64,000 bases of DNA from Bacteroidia bacterium (GTDB taxonomy: Bacteria; Bacteroidota; Bacteroidia; 2-12-FULL-35-15). A program made the position numbers and the translations under genes. Where the stretch lies: contig JAURXZ010000030.1 in NCBI GenBank assembly GCA_030654175.1, forward strand, positions 1 to 64,000. Reading direction: 5' to 3'. The notes under the pieces were generated by a model. That model ran no database searches and was not told the origin of the DNA. It saw only the letters and a program-made list of their open reading frames with translations. Of this stretch, positions 2,958-57,494 are shown piece by piece (within the stretch, counting starts at the first letter, position 1; every line of letters starts with the position of its first letter).

Positions 2958-3755
2958 AAACACATCATTTTAATTTTAAATTCAATCTACAATTTTGATA
3001 GCTAAGTAAGAAATTCAAAATATACGCGTTTTAATTACATTTCTTGTAAACTTAAACCCTCAAAACTGTCTTTCGTGTCTCAAAATATCATATATGCCAA
3101 AAGCACCTGTCAATACTGTAATTCAGGATGTCATAAAACAGGAGTTCAAAAAAATGGCAATCAAAAACTCCGCTGTAAAAAATGCAAAAAATATCAATTA
3201 CAATCTTATTCAAACAATGGATGTTTACAAGAAACTAAACAAATGATCATAAAACTTTGTAAGGTAAATGTAGGTATCAGAGATATAGGGAAATTGTTAG
3301 AAATTTCAGTAAACAGTGTGATCAAAAAAATAAAACAAGGTAACAATATCAAACGGAATTCAATACTGTTAACCAACCAAACCTACGAAGTAGATGAGAT
3401 GCGCACGTATGTTGGTAATAAGAAAAACACAAAATGGGTTGTGTATGCCATCAACAAAAAAACAAAACAAGTAATTGATATTGCAGTAGGAAACCGAACA
3501 AAATCAACTCTAAAAAAAGTAACAGATACCTTGCTACTTTCATCTCCAAAAGCCATTTACAGCGATGGATTAAACATCTACCAGCATCTCATTCCTGCTG
3601 CTATACATAAAGTTCAAGCACATAATATAAATTATATTGAACGTATGAACTTAACACTTCGCACTAAACTAAAAAGGTTAAACCGTAAAACAATTTGCTA
3701 TTCCAAAAAGTCAAGCATGTTATTGGCTGCCCTCAAAATTTTAGTTTGGGGCTAA
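2915..3755 (+). mobile_element. IS1-family insertion sequence (approximate limits)
   Basis: The element carries one transposase gene. The left limit is set where the integrase homology ends (about 2915); the right limit is the transposase stop. An 8-bp inverted pair CCCCAAAC (2944-2951) and GTTTGGGG (3744-3751) brackets the gene, and a 19-bp direct repeat lies at 2921-2939 and 3075-3093. No target duplication could be found, so the exact ends are unsure and the copy may be rearranged. Confidence 0.55.
3075..3755 (+). CDS. IS1-family transposase
   Basis: A 226-residue DDE transposase in a single frame, without the InsA/InsB frameshift of enteric IS1. It starts with a zinc finger (CQYC at residues 13-16 and CKKC near 34-37), then a helix-turn-helix (about 55-90), then the catalytic core: Asp in YEVDEMRTYVG, Asp in IYSDGLN and Glu in YIERMNLTLR. 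The length is close to the 232 residues of the enteric InsAB' product. The start is GTG, and it falls exactly on the second copy of a 19-bp direct repeat. The frame is intact, so it may still be active. Confidence 0.85.
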   Translation: MSQNIIYAKSTCQYCNSGCHKTGVQKNGNQKLRCKKCKKYQLQSYSNNGCLQETKQMIIKLCKVNVGIRDIGKLLEISVNSVIKKIKQGNNIKRNSILLTNQTYEVDEMRTYVGNKKNTKWVVYAINKKTKQVIDIAVGNRTKSTLKKVTDTLLLSSPKAIYSDGLNIYQHLIPAAIHKVQAHNINYIERMNLTLRTKLKRLNRKTICYSKKSSMLLAALKILVWG

Positions 3756-14253: not shown

Positions 14254-18009
<3,756 letters not shown>

Positions 18010-49339: not shown

Positions 49340-49930
49340 ATATTTGCGGCAGATTAGCGTTCCTCCATTGCTTCAATCTTCTTGTCGTTTCACTTAAACG
49401 ACCTTTTAATATAATAAGGTGTTCAATGCTATCTTACACATACTTTCCTAATTCTTGTTTTATCATTGCCTAAATCTGACATAATATACTTTTTACCTTA
49501 GTAGTTATTATTCATGTGTGGCTTTTAGGTTTCTGTGATTTTCAACATATAACGAGGCTTATTGCCTTATGTTACAAGGTATTGACACAATTAAACGCTA
49601 TTTGACACAATTTGACACTTTTAAAATATATTAAACGTCTTAAAACGATTGATTTTAAAGGGAAAGAACAGCTTTTTACGAAAAATAAAAAATGATTAAT
49701 TCAGGGTAAACGGTAGAACTACGCACAGATCAGGCAAGAAAAACATCTTACAAAACGTGGGAAAGGTTGATTTTATTGTACAATTGAAGGTTTCGTTTTT
49801 TATAGGGTTTCTTTTAGAATTTATTAAAGGGTTTCCTTTTACTGTTATTCGGTGGTTGGAAAATTATTTATGTTTAAGACAACTTTTTAATTAATGTTAT
49901 TTGAAGTATTTCAGGACCAACTCAAAATAA
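49340..49930. other. Gene-free decayed region behind tRNA-Leu
   Basis: No open frame with coding character was found in these 590 bases. The word TTGACAC occurs three times (about 49582, 49602 and 49612). The stretch is AT-rich with many stops and fits decayed mobile DNA between the recombinase remnant and the peptide cluster. Confidence 0.45.
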
Positions 49931-51676
49931 TTATTTTGTCATTTTTTCCGCATACTTTAAATTGTTCTTTACTAATTTTTTTAGAGAGGGGTAGAAAGTC
50001 AATTTCATTTTGGAGTTGGAGTTACAATACAAATTGTATATGTCTAATTCATAGGAACTATTATATTTATCGTACAATTCTATGGCCTCCTCTTCAGTTG
50101 GGCAGCGGGTTGAATATTTTTTTCTTGCCTCCCATAGCATTTTATCAGCTGCAATTTTTGACATATCAAGATACATAGCAAAGTAACCGATTGTAACAGA
50201 ATCAGGATCGAGCAGGTAACTATACTTATAATCAATCAAAGCGGAAGTGTTGAAAATAAGAGTGTCGGAATAGCAATCGTAATCAAGGTATAGCATTGTT
50301 GAAGCAAATGAAGAATCCCATTCAGCTTTTTTACCTTCATATTTATAATGTTTAAGGCGGGCATGGGAATCTCCGATTGGTTTGTTTCCTACCAATTGCA
50401 GATTCGGTTTCCAATCTTTGGTCCAGTGTTCAATTCTTTTCGGGAGAAAAGGGATGGAATCGTTTTCGTTTCTGCTGTCATAACATGGAATTGAATTAAA
50501 AGCCAGCCTCAATTGTTTTTCTGCATCATTTTCCGCAATTTCCGGATTACGCATGAAAAAATAGTTATTATAAGGGAAATAAGTTATAAGCTGGTAATCT
50601 GTCTTATTAGTGATAGAGTGAAGAATTGGCAATTGAAATTTCGTTCCATAATCATACAAAAATAATTTCATGGAAGTAAAAATGTGTCTTGTCTGGTTTT
50701 GGCTATTTGCATCAAATTGATAGTTAAAAACAATATAATTTAACAAAGTTTTATTTTGAAAAGAATCGAATCCCATTTCAATAGAATAAGAAAGGTTTGA
50801 GAATTTATTTTTTACCCTGTTCGCAATTGAAACGAATGGTATTGTTCCTACATTAGCCGCATTAAGGATTATTTTCTCCATCCTTTGTTTTTTTATAAAA
50901 TAAAACAATTCGCCTGAAAAAGAATTAATAGAATCTCTTGCTATAAATCGAAAATGCACGAGAGTATCGTTTTCTAATGGTGTTTTGTCTAATATGAAAA
51001 TTGAATAATTACGTTTTAGATGTCTCCATGTGGTCATTGTAAAAGGAGTGTATGGGAAGATGGATTCCTTGGTATTAAGAAAAGGCTTAAACAATTCTAT
51101 TAATGTTAGCGAACTCATGTTAAGAAATGAGGTTTGTTTTGGCAGCAAAAATCTGCCAGCCTTTAGTTTTGCATCTTTTATTTCAAGCGAATTACATTTG
51201 ACATTATAATACGCCTCAAACAGTTCAGCGGGATATATTTCGTCAACAGTTGTATATGACCTGAAAAACGCTTTTGAATCTGACATTTTTTGAGAAGTCT
51301 TGTAAAACGACTCGATTGCTTCTGTAAACAATATATAAGGCGTGTCGTCTTCATGCGCTGACACAATTACTTCATTTAATGTAGATGCAATAGGTTCCAG
51401 ATAGAGCAGAACATTCTCGGAATTTTCTTTTACAAAAAAAGTCTCTGTTTTATAGCCAACATATCTTACCGAAATCCATCTTACAGAATCAGTTGCTTTT
51501 AAAAGAAACACACCGTTTTCATTCGTTACGGTTGAGCCCGACAGAGAATTAACTGTAGCGTATGCTAATATTTCTTTTGTGATTTTGTCAGCTATCCGCC
51601 CTTTTATAATATGTTGAGCTGAGAGACTTCCTGAACAGAAATATACTATAGAAATAATAAGGATTTTATAATTCAT
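49931..51676 (-). CDS. Secreted protein with carboxypeptidase-D-regulatory-like domain, RiPP cluster
   Basis: A 581-residue exported protein with signal peptide (1-20, ending LSAQ). Residues 22-95 form a CarboxypepD_reg-like (transthyretin-like) domain: IIKGRIADKITKEILAYATV, NENGVFLL, ISVRYVGYKTETF. The remaining 480 residues are beta-rich with many aromatic residues and have no motif I can name; no TonB-type plug is seen, and the protein is shorter than SusC-type barrels. It is the last gene of the peptide cluster (65 bases behind the exporter). I infer a role at the outer membrane in passing on, receiving or sensing the peptide. Confidence 0.65.
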   Translation of the reverse strand: MNYKILIISIVYFCSGSLSAQHIIKGRIADKITKEILAYATVNSLSGSTVTNENGVFLLKATDSVRWISVRYVGYKTETFFVKENSENVLLYLEPIASTLNEVIVSAHEDDTPYILFTEAIESFYKTSQKMSDSKAFFRSYTTVDEIYPAELFEAYYNVKCNSLEIKDAKLKAGRFLLPKQTSFLNMSSLTLIELFKPFLNTKESIFPYTPFTMTTWRHLKRNYSIFILDKTPLENDTLVHFRFIARDSINSFSGELFYFIKKQRMEKIILNAANVGTIPFVSIANRVKNKFSNLSYSIEMGFDSFQNKTLLNYIVFNYQFDANSQNQTRHIFTSMKLFLYDYGTKFQLPILHSITNKTDYQLITYFPYNNYFFMRNPEIAENDAEKQLRLAFNSIPCYDSRNENDSIPFLPKRIEHWTKDWKPNLQLVGNKPIGDSHARLKHYKYEGKKAEWDSSFASTMLYLDYDCYSDTLIFNTSALIDYKYSYLLDPDSVTIGYFAMYLDMSKIAADKMLWEARKKYSTRCPTEEEAIELYDKYNSSYELDIYNLYCNSNSKMKLTFYPSLKKLVKNNLKYAEKMTK

Positions 51677-51741
51677 GTAATGGATATTTTATATGACAAA
51701 TTTAGTTTATTAGCTGGAGAATAAATGGCGAAGCAATTTAT

Positions 51742-53931
51742 TTATGCGAGTTGTAATTGTTCTTTCACTAATTCATAGTAAAAACCATTTTTTTCGATCA
51801 GTTCAAAATGAGAGCCCTCTTCGACAATTGTCCCATTTTTGAGTACAATGATAGTATCGGCATTTCTAACGGTATTGAGCCGGTGAGCAATAATTAGGCG
51901 GGTCTTTTTTGAAAATAACTTATCTAGGTTGTCACTAATGATGCGTTCTGTTTCTGAATCCAATGAGTTAGTGGCTTCGTCCATAAAAATATAATCCGGA
52001 TTTTTATAAAACATTCGGGCGATAAGTATCCGTTGTCGTTGTCCTGAGCTTAATGCAAGCCCGCCTTTTCCAATTATTGTATTATGACCGATCGGGAGCG
52101 ACATTACAAAATCGTATAAAGCGGCATTTTTGAGTGCCTGTATATAATTTTCTAAATTAATATCATCATTTGTTTCGGTTACATTATTAACAATCGTATC
52201 GGTAAATAAATAACCATCCTGCATTACCACTCCGCACTTTTGCCTCCATTCTTTAATATCATAATCTCCAATGGGTTTATCTTCGAGCATAATTTGTCCG
52301 GATTTTGCTGTGAATAAGCCCAAGGCAAGTTTCATCAAAGTCGTTTTACCGCTGCCACTTGTACCAACTATTGCCGTGGTTTTATTACGTTCAATTGTAA
52401 AGCTAATGTTTTGGATTACCTGATTGCTAACTTCTGTATATGAAAAGGAAATATTTTTGAACTTAATTGATCGGACATCTGTAACAGATCGCGTTCCAGG
52501 TAATTCATCCTTTATTGCCTGAATTTCGAGAATTCTTTCCAAGCTAAATTTCACTTCCTGAGTTAGGGCAATAGTCCCGTATATACTTGAGATTGTTGAA
52601 TTTAATTGCACAGCTATTAATTGAATGGCTGCCATTTCTCCTATTGTGATAGAATTATTAACAGCTAAGTATGCAGTATAAAAATTAATGGTACCCAATC
52701 CCAGATTATTTAAAAAACCTCCTCCGATTGACAGCCGTTGGGATAACTTAATATTTTTAAGATTATTCTTGAAAAATTTATTTTGATTGTTTAACAATAA
52801 ATCTACCTTTTTTGATTCGTTTCCATTTAATTTTATTTCATGGATTCCCTCAATCATTTCTGTGATATAATTATGGGTGGATACCTGAATATCAAACTTT
52901 TCGGAATTTACTTCTCTTTTTTTAAGAAGGGAATAAATCGTCCATACTGCATAAAGAGTACTAAACGCAATACATATCAAATACACTTGAAGGTTATAGT
53001 AGATCATCAACGCTGATAAAACAACAGCGCTTAATGCCGATAATAACATGGAAGAAAAATTATAGGTTAAAAAAGATTCAATTTTACTCAGATCATATAT
53101 CCTGTGAACAAAGTCACTGGTTTTTTTGTGTTGAAAAAAATGTAGGGGAATTTTAAACAACTTTCGGATGAAATCAGATGTAATCGAAAAATTAATTTTT
53201 TGGGAAATTTTATTTGAAATTATACCTTCAAAATAGCTAATACCGGATCCCATTGTAAACATGAGTATTTGGACGGAAAGCACAACCACAAGAACATTTA
53301 AGTCTTTTTGTAATAAACCCGAATCAAATGTTTGCTGAGCTAAATAGGGGGAAGCCACTTGAATTGCAAGCTTTACGAGCAGAATTAATAGAATTAAAAT
53401 AAATTCTTTTTTGCTCGAAAAAAGATGGTTAGTGATAAATTTAAGCTGATTTGAGATTAACTGATTTTCAAAAAAGTGATTTCCCTTGCTATAAAAAAAA
53501 TCCTGCGGTTCAAAAAGAATTACTTTTCCAAAATTCCCAGCAGTATTAAACAGAGTTTCAATATCTTCCAGTTTCATCACAAGTAAGCCTGTACTTGGGT
53601 CGGCAATGTATACTTTTCCTTTACTGATCTTATAAATAACAACAAAATGATCGTTGTTCCAAAAAGCAATAAGCGGTAAAGTTAGCTCCTCCAATGAAGG
53701 AACAGGATCACTCGGGTCGTGTTTTTTTAATGTTGTTTTGATTGCAATCGAATTAAATCCGATCTTTTCTCCCGCATTTTTTATAGCACTTATAGAAACT
53801 CCTTCTCTATCTATATGACAGAGTTCCCGGAGAGTCTGCAAAGAAATGTTCTTGCCATGAAACTTTACGATCATTTTAATACAAGCGGGCCCACAATCGG
53901 AACTTTCGTTTTGTCTATAGTATGAAAACAT
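51742..53931 (-). CDS. Peptidase C39-ABC exporter of the RiPP cluster
   Basis: A 729-residue PCAT-type exporter. Residues 1-130 are a C39 protease: Gln7 for the oxyanion hole, catalytic Cys13 in SSDCGPAC, His in NDHFVV (near 93) and Asp in ADPSTG. Membrane helices fill about 165-450; the ATPase has Walker A GTSGSGKTT (near 520), signature LSSGQRQR, Walker B YIFMDEAT and the H-loop in IIAHR. C39 domains cut leader peptides behind a Gly-Gly pair, and the precursor in this cluster has exactly such a pair, so this protein should both cleave and export it. Confidence 0.92.
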   Translation of the reverse strand: MFSYYRQNESSDCGPACIKMIVKFHGKNISLQTLRELCHIDREGVSISAIKNAGEKIGFNSIAIKTTLKKHDPSDPVPSLEELTLPLIAFWNNDHFVVIYKISKGKVYIADPSTGLLVMKLEDIETLFNTAGNFGKVILFEPQDFFYSKGNHFFENQLISNQLKFITNHLFSSKKEFILILLILLVKLAIQVASPYLAQQTFDSGLLQKDLNVLVVVLSVQILMFTMGSGISYFEGIISNKISQKINFSITSDFIRKLFKIPLHFFQHKKTSDFVHRIYDLSKIESFLTYNFSSMLLSALSAVVLSALMIYYNLQVYLICIAFSTLYAVWTIYSLLKKREVNSEKFDIQVSTHNYITEMIEGIHEIKLNGNESKKVDLLLNNQNKFFKNNLKNIKLSQRLSIGGGFLNNLGLGTINFYTAYLAVNNSITIGEMAAIQLIAVQLNSTISSIYGTIALTQEVKFSLERILEIQAIKDELPGTRSVTDVRSIKFKNISFSYTEVSNQVIQNISFTIERNKTTAIVGTSGSGKTTLMKLALGLFTAKSGQIMLEDKPIGDYDIKEWRQKCGVVMQDGYLFTDTIVNNVTETNDDINLENYIQALKNAALYDFVMSLPIGHNTIIGKGGLALSSGQRQRILIARMFYKNPDYIFMDEATNSLDSETERIISDNLDKLFSKKTRLIIAHRLNTVRNADTIIVLKNGTIVEEGSHFELIEKNGFYYELVKEQLQLA

Positions 53932-54011
53932 TGTTTAAACTTTTATATGTAATAAAATCCAGAATGTATAACCTTTAAACATGGAGCGAACTGATACATT
54001 TACAGCATCTT

Positions 54012-55034
54012 TTATTCCCAAACCATTTCATAAGGATTGTAATTGCACTTTGCTGGTTTTTTTAGCGAATTATCGGTCTCTAAATATGCCCGACAATCAG
54101 TACAGACATGTCTGAATTCACAAACCTTACAATCGTCTATCGTATCTTTTTTTATATTCCAAATAGCTTTAAATTGCTCCAGCTTAACTATATCTTTTAT
54201 TCTAGTATCAGTTATTTTACCAAAACCATTTACCATAGAAGGACAATTTTTAATTATGCCATTGGAATCGATACTTATTTTTCTATTCAGACAAGAGTTG
54301 TAGTTAGTAGATTCTAAGAAATGATCTTGATTCAAGTTAAAGTATTTAGGCGAGATGATGCCACAACAATTCTGATCTATTATTACCTGTTTAGTTAAAT
54401 AAATTCGTTCTGATATACCTTTAACAGATTCGATGTCCATATCGCATGAGTGCACAACCATCTCATTTACACGAGGAAATATAGATAATAGCTGATTATA
54501 TTTTTCCGCTCCTTTAGTAAATTTTAATATCAGTTCGATTCTGAAAACAATGGAATGTTCAAAAAATTGGAGAAATGAATTCAGAAAATCAAAAGGAAGC
54601 CCAATAAAATCTCTGATTTGAATATTTTCGCATCCAAGCTCATCCAGGTCAGCAATGATTGTTTTGTAAATTTCCAAATTATCGGGCACTTTATCAAAAT
54701 CAAGGATACAGTTTGAAATAATAGAAGGGTGATCCCAATTTTTATTAAGCTTCGGGAAATAATCTATTTCGTTTTTATCGCACAAAAAAGCATATTCATT
54801 ATCAATTAAAAACAAAAAGTAATCTATGACTATTTCCCTTTTTTCTTTATTATAATAATCTATAATTTCGGCTATTGTCTTTGTTCGATTACTTGTGGAG
54901 AAGATGTCGTATATTTCATTATCCAAAAATTCAATTTTATTTCTTTGCGTATCAGTAAGCAATGTCCGTCCAAATCCTTTTGTTAATTGGCAGGATTCAA
55001 ACAGTAAAATGTATTTATTCAGGTCAATTTTCAT
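54012..55034 (-). CDS. gwsS: SPASM-domain peptide maturase (grasp-with-spasm type)
   Basis: A 340-residue protein resembling radical-SAM/SPASM peptide maturases in its barrel-like middle (for example ENIQIRDFIG...FRIELILKF) and in a cysteine-rich C-terminus. The SPASM part (about 240-330) has NSC, KNCPS, then the CxxCxxxxxCxxC series in CKVCEFRHVCTDC and a last Cys in AKCNY. The N-terminal CxxxCxxC radical-SAM triad is absent. The pairing with an ATP-grasp gene is what defines grasp-with-spasm systems. Its start overlaps the stop of the 66-residue gene by 4 bases. Likely role: recognition or modification of the precursor; chemistry unknown. Confidence 0.8.
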   Translation of the reverse strand: MKIDLNKYILLFESCQLTKGFGRTLLTDTQRNKIEFLDNEIYDIFSTSNRTKTIAEIIDYYNKEKREIVIDYFLFLIDNEYAFLCDKNEIDYFPKLNKNWDHPSIISNCILDFDKVPDNLEIYKTIIADLDELGCENIQIRDFIGLPFDFLNSFLQFFEHSIVFRIELILKFTKGAEKYNQLLSIFPRVNEMVVHSCDMDIESVKGISERIYLTKQVIIDQNCCGIISPKYFNLNQDHFLESTNYNSCLNRKISIDSNGIIKNCPSMVNGFGKITDTRIKDIVKLEQFKAIWNIKKDTIDDCKVCEFRHVCTDCRAYLETDNSLKKPAKCNYNPYEMVWE

Positions 55035-55231
55035 ACGATTGTTCTTGATATTTTTTTATAAAAAGAATTAATTACAATTTCCTTTGTTTGATATTTTTCA
55101 ATATTTATCATTCTAGCAACATTATTGTTATTACTGATAAATTTCGCCTTTGGTTTTATTAAGCTAAAATTCAATTGAAAATGTTCTTTATTGTTTTGTA
55201 TAAAATCTACTATCGTTTTTTCTTGTATCAT
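55031..55231 (-). CDS. 66-residue protein inside the RiPP cluster, unknown
   Basis: A small, Ile/Asn/Lys-rich protein with no Gly-Gly leader, no signal peptide and no membrane segment; the C-terminus is basic. It begins 36 bases behind the ATP-grasp gene and ends with a 4-base ATGA overlap with the SPASM gene, so it is translated from the same mRNA and coupled to the next start. It could be a peptide-recognition or adaptor subunit. It is also possible that it is the decayed front part of the maturase; I do not recognise the family. Confidence 0.55.
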   Translation of the reverse strand: MIQEKTIVDFIQNNKEHFQLNFSLIKPKAKFISNNNNVARMINIEKYQTKEIVINSFYKKISRTIV

Positions 55232-55267
55232 AATTTTTCTATTGGATTAATAAGAATAATAAAGGAT

Positions 55268-56242
55268 TCAAGCGTTATATTTTTTAACTAAACTTGCTGC
55301 AATTTTTTCCTCAAGGTAATAATTACATGGGTATGAAACCATTCCAAATTGACCAATCGGATTAACTTCCAGAAAATAAAATTTATTATCTGTAGAATAG
55401 ATCAAATCAATTGACCCTGATTCAAACCTTAACTCTTTCATCAGTTTATGTAAGTTAATCTCTATTTGTTCCGGTAGCTTAAATGGAACTGTTCTATTGG
55501 GTTTATCATCATTATATACCCTAAAATCCGTTTGGGTTTGCGAATCATTTTGCGAAAAAATAGCCATCGAATAAAATGACCCTTCCAAATAAAATGTTCG
55601 AATCTCTATTTTTTTTTCAATGTAGCTCTGAAACAAGGTAGGTTTAAATGATTGAGGCATATTTTTTAAGATGTTTTCATTTACCTCTTCGGTATATGTT
55701 GGCAGCCAATAATCGTCAGAACCAAAAATAAAAGAACTGTGAATCGGTTTTGTGATTACTTTTTTATGCTTTTGCAAAAATATTTTCACAGTATCACTCT
55801 GTGTAGTAATTATAAATTCAGGAATATTTAAACCACATTTACCTGCGGTAAGTAAAACAATATTTTTATTCACATTGGTGCAGGAAGAGCTATCTCCAAT
55901 ACAAGGAATATTCTCTTTTAAATGATTAATAAAAAAATCCCCAAAGGACTTATTCTCGCCTTGTAGGTAAGCTAAATAAGTTCTATTAAATTCACTGTTT
56001 GCGGACTTTGGAACATCCCAAATATTGCTATAGTCCCCTCTCCTATACCAGTAGGCTTTGATCTCACTGAAATCCAATTTCCTTCCATCTTCGAATTCAA
56101 CTATAAATGTATTATCTATATATTCAATTTTATTTATTCTTATTATGTTATTAAATCGTTTGAATTTTACATTGTATTTCAATAACCATTTAATTACATG
56201 GTCTGTTGAAACATCTCTATCAATACTATTAATTAAAATCAT
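55268..56242 (-). CDS. gwsG: ATP-grasp peptide maturase (grasp-with-spasm type)
   Basis: A 324-residue ATP-grasp ligase related to the microviridin/graspetide ligases. N-terminal domain marks include the AYWYRRGDY segment (near 63-71). The nucleotide-binding Lys is in KKVITKP (near 160-166), FQSYIEKKIEIRTFYL follows near 205-220, and the metal-binding end is in GSIDLIYSTDNKFYFLEVNP, with Asp, Glu and Asn ligands (near 278-297). Graspetide ligases join Ser/Thr or Lys side chains to Asp/Glu side chains in rings. The precursor gene is directly upstream, separated by a terminator-like hairpin. Confidence 0.87.
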   Translation of the reverse strand: MILINSIDRDVSTDHVIKWLLKYNVKFKRFNNIIRINKIEYIDNTFIVEFEDGRKLDFSEIKAYWYRRGDYSNIWDVPKSANSEFNRTYLAYLQGENKSFGDFFINHLKENIPCIGDSSSCTNVNKNIVLLTAGKCGLNIPEFIITTQSDTVKIFLQKHKKVITKPIHSSFIFGSDDYWLPTYTEEVNENILKNMPQSFKPTLFQSYIEKKIEIRTFYLEGSFYSMAIFSQNDSQTQTDFRVYNDDKPNRTVPFKLPEQIEINLHKLMKELRFESGSIDLIYSTDNKFYFLEVNPIGQFGMVSYPCNYYLEEKIAASLVKKYNA

Positions 56243-56248
56243 AGCTGT

Positions 56249-56285
56249 AATAAAAAAGGAAAGGGCTGAACAATACAGCCCTTCC
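56249..56285 (-). terminator. Attenuating terminator between precursor and maturase genes
   Basis: On the minus strand GGAAGGGCTG-tattgtt-CAGCCCTTTCC is followed by six T residues. It lies 13 bases behind the precursor stop and before the ATP-grasp start. Partial read-through would give more precursor than enzyme. Confidence 0.8.
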
Positions 56286-56297
56286 CTAATAATTTAC

Positions 56298-56552
56298 TTA
56301 TCTTGTGATAACATCCAATGCTCCAGCTGCATTATTGGGATTAAAAACCGCAGCCCAAGAATCTCCATATAAGCTACCAGATGAGCCATCTGCACCATAT
56401 AGGTTCCCATCCACATAGGTAGTGAGACTTCTTGGTTGACTTGGCCCTACATAATTAGTGGTTGATCCTTTGTCTACTCCACCCTTTGTGGATGCTTCCA
56501 TTTCTGATAAAATTGCTTCTTTTGCAATTTTCATTTCTGTTACTTTTTTCAT
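56298..56552 (-). CDS. RiPP precursor peptide with Gly-Gly leader
   Basis: An 84-residue peptide. The leader (1-25) is amphipathic and acidic, MKKVTEMKIAKEAILSEMEA, and ends in Gly24-Gly25, the cut site of C39 exporters. The 59-residue core has no Cys and no Glu, but five Asp (27, 48, 55, 64, 80), twelve Ser/Thr and one Lys, and holds the near repeat LYGADGSSGS and LYGDS (51-65). Asp together with Ser/Thr are the residues that ATP-grasp ligases join. All partner genes lie downstream on the same strand. The start ATG at 56552 has an A/T-rich upstream region with no clear promoter. Confidence 0.85.
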   Translation of the reverse strand: MKKVTEMKIAKEAILSEMEASTKGGVDKGSTTNYVGPSQPRSLTTYVDGNLYGADGSSGSLYGDSWAAVFNPNNAAGALDVITR

Positions 56553-56968
56553 AGTATTTAATTATTTATTTATTGCCTACTCTATAAGCTTTTCGGCTTC
56601 CGCTTTAATTTATCAATAAATTATACTCCAATTGCTTTATTGAAGTTCTCAAGCACCCTGGCAATTATTACCCTATAAGATGCAAGAAAGTGTCGACAAT
56701 TTGCATAATAACGGTAGCTAAACTAATCAAATATATTTAGCAACAACACTAAATATTAAAAATACCGTATAAATACCTATGAAATACGGTAAAAACACCT
56801 AGTGGAAAAATACCGTAAAAACACCTAATAAAATACCGTGAAAAATACGTAGGGAAATTGTGGAATCTTAAAAACAGGGGGAAATAATTCAAAAATTTGC
56901 GATAAACAAAAACGTTTGTTTTAGAATGGAGATACGAATTTAAGAGATGGAAGTACTCTATTATATAA
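56553..56968. promoter_or_regulatory. Upstream region of the RiPP operon
   Basis: No gene is seen. The segment must contain the operon promoter; a TATAATTT-type sequence exists on the minus strand near 56620, but a full consensus promoter could not be found. The direct-repeat array is at its far end (56762-56851). Confidence 0.4.
56762..56851. repeat. Array of four TACCGT-n5-ACCTA direct repeats
   Basis: The hexamer TACCGT (once TACGGT) begins at 56763, 56785, 56811 and 56834, and each is followed 11-12 bases later by a related half site (TACCTA, CACCTA, CACCTA, TACGTA). The unit period is 22-26 bases, about two helical turns. A related pair, TACGGTATTTAGGTACGGTA, occurs in opposite orientation at 59961-59980. 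It looks like a cluster of binding sites for a regulator. Confidence 0.65.
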
Positions 56969-57094
56969 TTATTTCTTTGTGTGGTAAAGTAGCTCAGTAA
57001 TATCCACGTCTAATGCTTTCGCAATTTCAGTTAATGTTTCTAATGAAGGTTTTGCTGAATTGCTACAATTGGTTAGGGGAGTATTAATTGTCAT
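56969..57094 (-). pseudogene. Truncated XRE-type regulator paralogue
   Basis: A 41-residue frame contains NCSNSAKPSLETLTEIAKAL, then DVDITELL. This matches the C-terminal half of the helix-turn-helix of the intact XRE protein 18 bases upstream on the same strand (CNNAIQPSLETLAEIAKVLD), while the N-terminal half is gone. It is the worn second copy of a tandem duplication. Confidence 0.7.
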
Positions 57095-57111
57095 TGTTTC
57101 ACAAAATGATT

Positions 57112-57327
57112 TTATTTTGTGGAATTTATTAAATCTTTAATATCTACATCCAATACTTTTGCAATTTCAGCTAGTGTTTCCAAAGAAGGTTGTATAGCAT
57201 TATTACACCATTTTGAAACAGTAGACGGAGTTTTATTTAACTGTTTAGCCAACCATTTGTTTGTTCTGTATTTTTCAGCTAACACAACACGAATTCTGTT
57301 AAGCTCTTTTTTGCTTGCTTTTTCCAT
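57112..57327 (-). CDS. XRE-family helix-turn-helix regulator
   Basis: A 71-residue single-domain DNA-binding protein. The start at 57327 (MEKASKKELNRIRV) is preferred to an upstream ATG since a TATATTTG box (minus strand, 57334-57341) lies 6 bases before it. The helix-turn-helix covers KWLAKQLNKTPSTVSKWCNN and is followed by PSLETLAEIAKVLDVDIKDL. Such stand-alone Cro/C1-type proteins often repress their own gene or neighbours. Its position between the RiPP operon and a divergent small gene leaves the target open. Confidence 0.85.
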   Translation of the reverse strand: MEKASKKELNRIRVVLAEKYRTNKWLAKQLNKTPSTVSKWCNNAIQPSLETLAEIAKVLDVDIKDLINSTK

Positions 57328-57494
57328 AGGAAGCAAATATATATTTGATTTTATTCACAAAGAATCAACATATAATAACATACAGTTTCAATATAACAAC
57401 AATATAATTTCATATTATCGCAATAATATGTAATTTAGCGACATAATATTTTTTTACAAAAAAAGACAACAAATATATCTTAAACATTAATAAT

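Follow-up and report, generated by a model that had tools for sequence, protein, structure and literature searches.

A cluster type in which an ATP-grasp gene is accompanied by a gene for a SPASM protein was surveyed as 'branch 5' by Makarova 2022 (PMC8939145), with 190 loci, most of them having unstudied precursors. In that survey, the SPASM protein was treated as a radical SAM enzyme and thioether bonds were suggested. For the small LPL proteins of these loci, a PqqD-like role was proposed, with binding to the ATP-grasp enzyme raised as a further possibility. In a further system, described by Carter 2026 (PMC13097080), the partner protein MirC, which has an RRE-like N-domain, is required for the graspetide rosaritide. 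No characterised product of a grasp-with-SPASM cluster was found in the literature surveyed, in agreement with the initial annotation of the present locus, which had taken its product to be probably undescribed. This does not make the locus special, because most precursors of the 190 surveyed branch loci are likewise unstudied.

The locus analyzed here lies in a window of 64,000 nucleotides, on contig 16 of the 5.1 Mb draft genome of an uncultured Bacteroidota bacterium. Its genes identify it as a member of the known grasp-with-SPASM cluster type, and its precursor belongs to an unstudied family. It is a locus of branch 5 and, judging by its SPASM gene, probably belongs to 'group 14' of Carter 2026. 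That the cluster is a graspetide pathway is highly likely. As in branch 5, the ATP-grasp and SPASM genes are adjacent with the LPL gene directly before the SPASM gene, a Gly-Gly precursor precedes the ATP-grasp gene, and a C39 ABC exporter is encoded. The locus differs in that its precursor family is absent from Pfam and NCBIfam, the signature Pro of its LPL protein is replaced by Gln, and its CarbopepD_reg gene is common only to its nearest relatives; the branch 5 criterion includes a cluster 23 family protein, whereas the sixth gene here has a CarbopepD_reg domain. Like the rosaritide locus, it encodes a putative non-ATP-grasp partner with a predicted RRE-like N-domain alongside the synthetase, but the C-domain of MirC is SurA-like rather than of the radical-SAM/SPASM fold, and the phylum and precursor are different.

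Operon layout, conservation and distribution

The six same-strand genes that the initial annotation placed at 49931-56552 were all recovered in an ORF check, on the minus strand, and they constitute one real operon. It runs from the precursor gene (start 56552) through the ATP-grasp, LPL, SPASM and C39 exporter genes to the CarbopepD_reg gene (end 49931). The intergenic gaps are 36-80 bp, and an ATGA overlap joins the 66-aa gene to the SPASM gene, which is separated from the ATP-grasp gene by this one small gene. The features are as follows.

56758..56857, strand not assigned: three to four direct repeats of about 20-27 bp (AAATACCGTAAAAACACCTA type), located upstream of the operon
56298..56552, minus strand: precursor peptide, 84 aa; ORF with homologs at L017, L022, L023, L025, L028, L038 and L043
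56257..56287, minus strand: hairpin with a 12-bp stem and a T run, in the gap between the precursor and ATP-grasp genes
55268..56242, minus strand: predicted ATP-grasp graspetide synthetase, 324 aa; TIGR04192 and MdnC profile match
55031..55231, minus strand: small protein assigned to the LPL family, 66 aa; in the same place in nearly all relatives
54012..55034, minus strand: SPASM protein, 340 aa; TIGR04193, AlphaFold model
51742..53931, minus strand: peptidase-containing ABC exporter, 729 aa; C39, membrane and ATPase domains
49931..51676, minus strand: CarbopepD_reg protein, 581 aa; apparent signal peptide, N-terminal CarboxypepD_reg-like domain

The neighborhood survey that had been proposed showed that relatives share the LPL, SPASM and ATP-grasp arrangement, with a small gene at the LPL position in nearly all loci. 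Each of the eight clade loci checked has a strong hairpin after its precursor gene (z-scores of -3.9 to -7.6, approximate only, from a shuffle permuting dinucleotide blocks); these hairpins differ in sequence and are similar in stability. The hairpin of the window is probably an attenuator, or a terminator with read-through. The AAATACCGTAAAAACACCTA-type repeats, of which the orthologous cassette L017 has two related copies, are possible regulator-binding sites, and Sigma-70-like promoters showed no excess over chance. Two short XRE-type helix-turn-helix ORFs on the operon strand just upstream of the operon (56969-57336) are possible regulators or remnants. Elsewhere in the window, sequence reading alone revealed a seemingly truncated tyrosine-recombinase-like ORF (1902-2957) beside an IS1-like transposase ORF (3075-3755). 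A long ORF at 14257-18009 encodes a 1250-aa protein with a collagen-like G-x-T/S repeat tract (STGNTGSTG...), and the opposite strand is also open within this region (14610-16376).

The orthologous 7.4 kb cassette L017 was found in a second genome of the genus (G006), with 90.7% DNA identity to positions 49431-56809 of the window; it sits elsewhere in that genome, flanked by unrelated neighbors. All six reading frames are intact in both genomes, and dN/dS values of 0.10-0.21 across the six genes indicated purifying selection. The cluster is thus not a chance assembly, given the orthologous cassette at another site and the selection on all six genes. Between the two precursors, the leader shows 1 nonsynonymous and 4 synonymous differences and the core 16.7 and 15.3, with amino-acid changes nearly all within the core. 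Identity to the G006 cassette is mosaic: approximately 99% over 55070-55820, a tract that takes in the 66-aa gene together with the larger part of the ATP-grasp gene, and approximately 80-97% in the rest, a pattern suggestive of local recombination.

At least 482 relatives were found when genome contigs were scanned. TIGR04193 was matched above its cut-off in 5 of 198 sampled Bacteroidota genomes. Within the genus, TIGR04192 had a match in 7 of 36 genomes, and one of these seven has an additional second locus with a stop in the ATP-grasp gene. A phage origin was considered and rejected, as the operon region had no match among phage records and the SPASM protein had no relatives in viral contigs. 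Grasp-with-SPASM loci were also observed on MAG contigs labelled Beijerinckiaceae (L033), Acholeplasmatales (L052) and Phycisphaerales (L094); these labels may be binning errors, since the ATP-grasp protein of L052 is identical to that of a Bacteroidota MAG (L051). L079:4276-6122 carries an ATP-grasp gene of the family with no SPASM match in the following 1.8 kb of the contig, a case in which the strict pairing of the two genes may break down. At three other grasp-with-SPASM loci of the genus (L015:2172-4664, L016:9899-12370 and L020:258-2538), tandem repeat-containing proteins (MAEETQYTANTG..ISTANxNLDGTGTLG...) directly precede the precursor/ATP-grasp genes.

Precursor family and ATP-grasp enzyme

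The precursor is of the Gly-Gly-leader type, as first described: its leader (residues 1-25) ends in Gly24-Gly25, and the core (26-84) comprises 59 residues of the 84-aa ORF. Conserved residues are T32, T45, D48, D55, S58, D64 and W66, within the family core pattern T-Y-V/L-D-G-x3-G-x-D-x2-S-G-S/T-L-x-G-D-x-W. T45, D48, G49 and D55 are invariant in 12/12 precursors, and T32, S58, G59, L61, G63, D64 and W66 are invariant in the nine long precursors aligned. D80, the last Asp of the core, is Asn in L017 and is therefore probably not a ring residue. Cys is absent from the window precursor and from its family, and so is the core Cys by which thioether peptides are recognized. The window precursor had no match in Pfam or NCBIfam, nor to TIGR04149 (Gly-Gly-leader precursors) at E values up to 1; its L028 homolog scored 14 bits against a TIGR04149 cut-off of 25.

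Loci with this core family are confined to a single 12-row ATP-grasp clade (SH-aLRT 97), and the precursor-family label required two changes on the ATP-grasp tree compared with 5.9 in shuffles. The family is rare. Among 395 Bacteroidota genomes sampled, it occurred in a single one, that of the window, and in the genus it occurred in 2 of 36. No plasmid relatives of the precursor were found, and the window's genome holds no credible second precursor. At L028:6468-7907, a single ATP-grasp gene is preceded by a tandem array of five precursor genes from this core family, which suggests that one enzyme may serve several products.

The grasp-with-spasm pair named in the initial annotation was borne out by both family models, with the ATP-grasp protein matching TIGR04192 at E 9e-86 (288 bits; curated cut-off 230) and the SPASM protein matching TIGR04193 at E 5e-88 (296 bits; curated cut-off 175). 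Profile comparison matched the ATP-grasp protein to MdnC (5ig9; E 6e-45), CdnC (6e-40), AMdnB and PsnB, and fold comparison placed MdnC and CdnC at the top and also matched AMdnB, PruB and PsnB. D279, E292 and N294 are invariant in 75 relatives. By profile and predicted fold, the protein is a graspetide synthetase; it shares family and fold with MdnC/CdnC at 25-27% identity and with PsnB (plesiocin) at 13-16%. In contrast to the microviridin, chryseoviridin and plesiocin systems, the leader here is without the PFFARFL motif, and SPASM and LPL proteins are additionally encoded.

SPASM protein, LPL protein and export genes

The SPASM protein was proposed as a maturase; its family membership stands, whereas a role as a second modifying enzyme does not agree with the data, there being no CX3CX2C motif, no Radical_SAM match and no Cys in the precursor. 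None of 91 ATP-grasp-linked SPASM proteins has CX3CX2C in its first 220 residues, and none of 79 SPASM relatives matched Pfam Radical_SAM (PF04055). As a control, a search of the same genome gave 16 Radical_SAM proteins, every one of which contains CX3CX2C, and the SPASM protein was absent from the matches of that search. Its own cluster slot reads SNCIIDFD where CX3CX2C would stand. On the missing motif and the lack of a Pfam match, we rejected it as a radical SAM enzyme, and these sequence data make it very probable that the protein does no radical SAM chemistry. The thioether suggestion of PMC8939145 does not fit these motif data or the Cys-free precursor.

To describe the fold, we used an AlphaFold model (pLDDT 93.1, pTM 0.87), in which an RRE-like domain (approximately residues 6-92) is followed by a degenerate radical-SAM barrel (approximately 100-245) and a SPASM Cys region (224-330). 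Residues 6-92 matched the RRE domains of PbtF (Z 9.6, rmsd 2.3 over 78 residues), TbiB1 (Z 8.5), ThcOx, TruD and MccB, whereas comparison of this domain with the PqqD profile was weak (hhalign probability 15%, E 0.0017). Residues 100-336 matched the radical-SAM/SPASM proteins PqqE, SuiB and BtrN, and TigE aligned with the model over 300 residues. The protein thus has the same domain order and predicted fold as the RRE-rSAM-SPASM maturases CteB, SuiB and TigE, but the CX3CX2C cluster site is missing and its length is 340 aa rather than 420-450. The RRE assignment rests on this predicted fold, and we rate a role as an RRE-type partner as slightly better than an even chance. Cys302, 305, 311 and 330 are invariant in 79/79 relatives and Cys15 is present in 77/79; this invariance of the first four suggests that an Fe-S cluster is probably kept, which a mere scaffold would not require. 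A second Cys set (224, 248, 264 and 314) is nearly all-or-none (58 proteins with all four, 17 with none and 4 with one), the pattern predicted for ligands of a single dispensable Fe-S cluster.

The 66-residue protein, first listed without family, is present but is not an orphan: its sequence marks it as a divergent LPL-family member with the signature Pro substituted. It aligns with the LPL proteins of 44 loci and has 47% identity to the L022/L023 copies. It reads FQLNF where the LPLxF/Y motif is expected, with Gln at the position occupied by Pro in 43/45 aligned sequences, and ends in FYKKISR; K59 and I61 of the C-terminus are present in 44/45. A PqqD-like role of the LPL protein appears less likely because the SPASM protein itself bears the RRE-like domain, and the interaction with the ATP-grasp enzyme raised in PMC8939145 is a possible alternative. 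In a read-through chain model of the ATP-grasp and LPL proteins, built with few paired rows, the enzyme was well folded and the LPL part had a pLDDT of about 30, with no confident placement.

The exporter matched Pfam Peptidase_C39 (PF03412; E 2e-34) and ABC membrane and ATPase domains, and the C39 Cys and His are present (SSDCGPAC and NNDHFVV), consistent with its first description. The cluster had also been called complete. This is correct for the six genes and not for an envelope-spanning exporter: no gene for a HlyD-type adaptor or outer-membrane channel lies within the cluster, and a genome-wide TIGR01843 search gave 53 bits at best, far below the cut-off of 209. The CarboxypepD-reg-like nature of the last gene product was upheld by a CarbopepD_reg_2 match (E 2e-9) and the apparent signal peptide. 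Its homologs were found only in the clusters L017, L022 and L023, which indicates that the protein belongs to this sub-type.

Proposed pathway and alternatives

We consider it likely that the operon is horizontally mobile and serves to make an exported graspetide, with the SPASM protein as leader-holding partner. What the sequence shows is which genes are present, the families they belong to, the conserved core pattern and a SPASM protein that has lost its radical SAM motif; from these observations the following pathway is proposed. Attenuation at the hairpin would make the precursor more abundant than the enzymes. The SPASM protein, as a non-catalytic partner, would hold the leader helix through its RRE-like N-terminus, while the ATP-grasp enzyme would phosphorylate the side chains of D48, D55 and D64. 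The activated Asp residues would then be joined to Thr/Ser hydroxyls as ester rings, with T32, T45 and S58 the best candidates, although the rings on Asp48, Asp55 and Asp64 may be ester or amide; this residue assignment has about equal chances of being right or wrong. The LPL protein may be an accessory factor in ring formation. The C39 exporter would cut after Gly24-Gly25 and export the 59-residue core, and the CarbopepD_reg protein would have its role beyond the inner membrane, either in passage or in immunity. Graspetide chemistry is supported by the invariance of core donors and acceptors in the precursors of one ATP-grasp clade, and the partner model has a precedent in the MirC-dependent synthesis of a graspetide (PMC13097080).

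If the SPASM protein were instead an active enzyme, using Fe-S clusters for a second, redox or radical, modification after ring formation, its invariant cysteines and its designation as a radical SAM enzyme linked to thioether bonds (PMC8939145) would be accommodated. We regard this as unlikely in view of the missing CX3CX2C motif, the lack of any Radical_SAM match and the Cys-free precursor family. Moreover, a link of second Fe-S site loss to Cys-free precursors was not seen; with precursors called by a rough regular expression, the loss went with Cys-containing precursors (12/13) rather than Cys-free ones (28/45). A somewhat stronger, still doubtful, candidate is that the LPL protein serves as a trans-acting leader and that its LPLxF/Y motif occupies the site on the ATP-grasp enzyme at which the microviridin PFFARFL helix docks. 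This motif is similar to the Phhx(1,2)h leader motif, which is absent from precursors of the branch (PMC8939145), and some loci encode LPL proteins with LPFFFRN or LPLFFKN, but the window copy has Gln for the signature Pro and the read-through model left the protein unplaced.

A decaying or silent cluster yielding no mature peptide is very improbable. The lack of an adaptor or channel gene within the cluster, the occurrence in only 7/36 genus genomes and the stop in the second locus of one of them would agree with decay, whereas the intact frames in two genomes, the low dN/dS values and the conserved hairpin argue against it.

The new information is mainly at the family level, namely that the SPASM protein is very unlikely to be a radical enzyme and probably holds the substrate; the missing domain may already be noted in earlier literature. 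For the cluster type, which is widespread in Bacteroidota, we put at roughly one in two the chance that grasp-with-SPASM is a graspetide class whose substrate is recognized by a separate RRE-bearing pseudo-radical-SAM protein that has lost its SAM cluster and turned into a partner delivering substrate to an ATP-grasp macrocyclase, aided by the LPL protein. Should the SPASM protein prove to be a non-radical partner, the thioether or C-C bonds predicted in the literature for the branch would have to be reconsidered, and both the SPASM and the LPL protein ought to be part of any heterologous expression although they would be non-catalytic. The conserved Cys-free core offers a small, testable ring-mapping problem.
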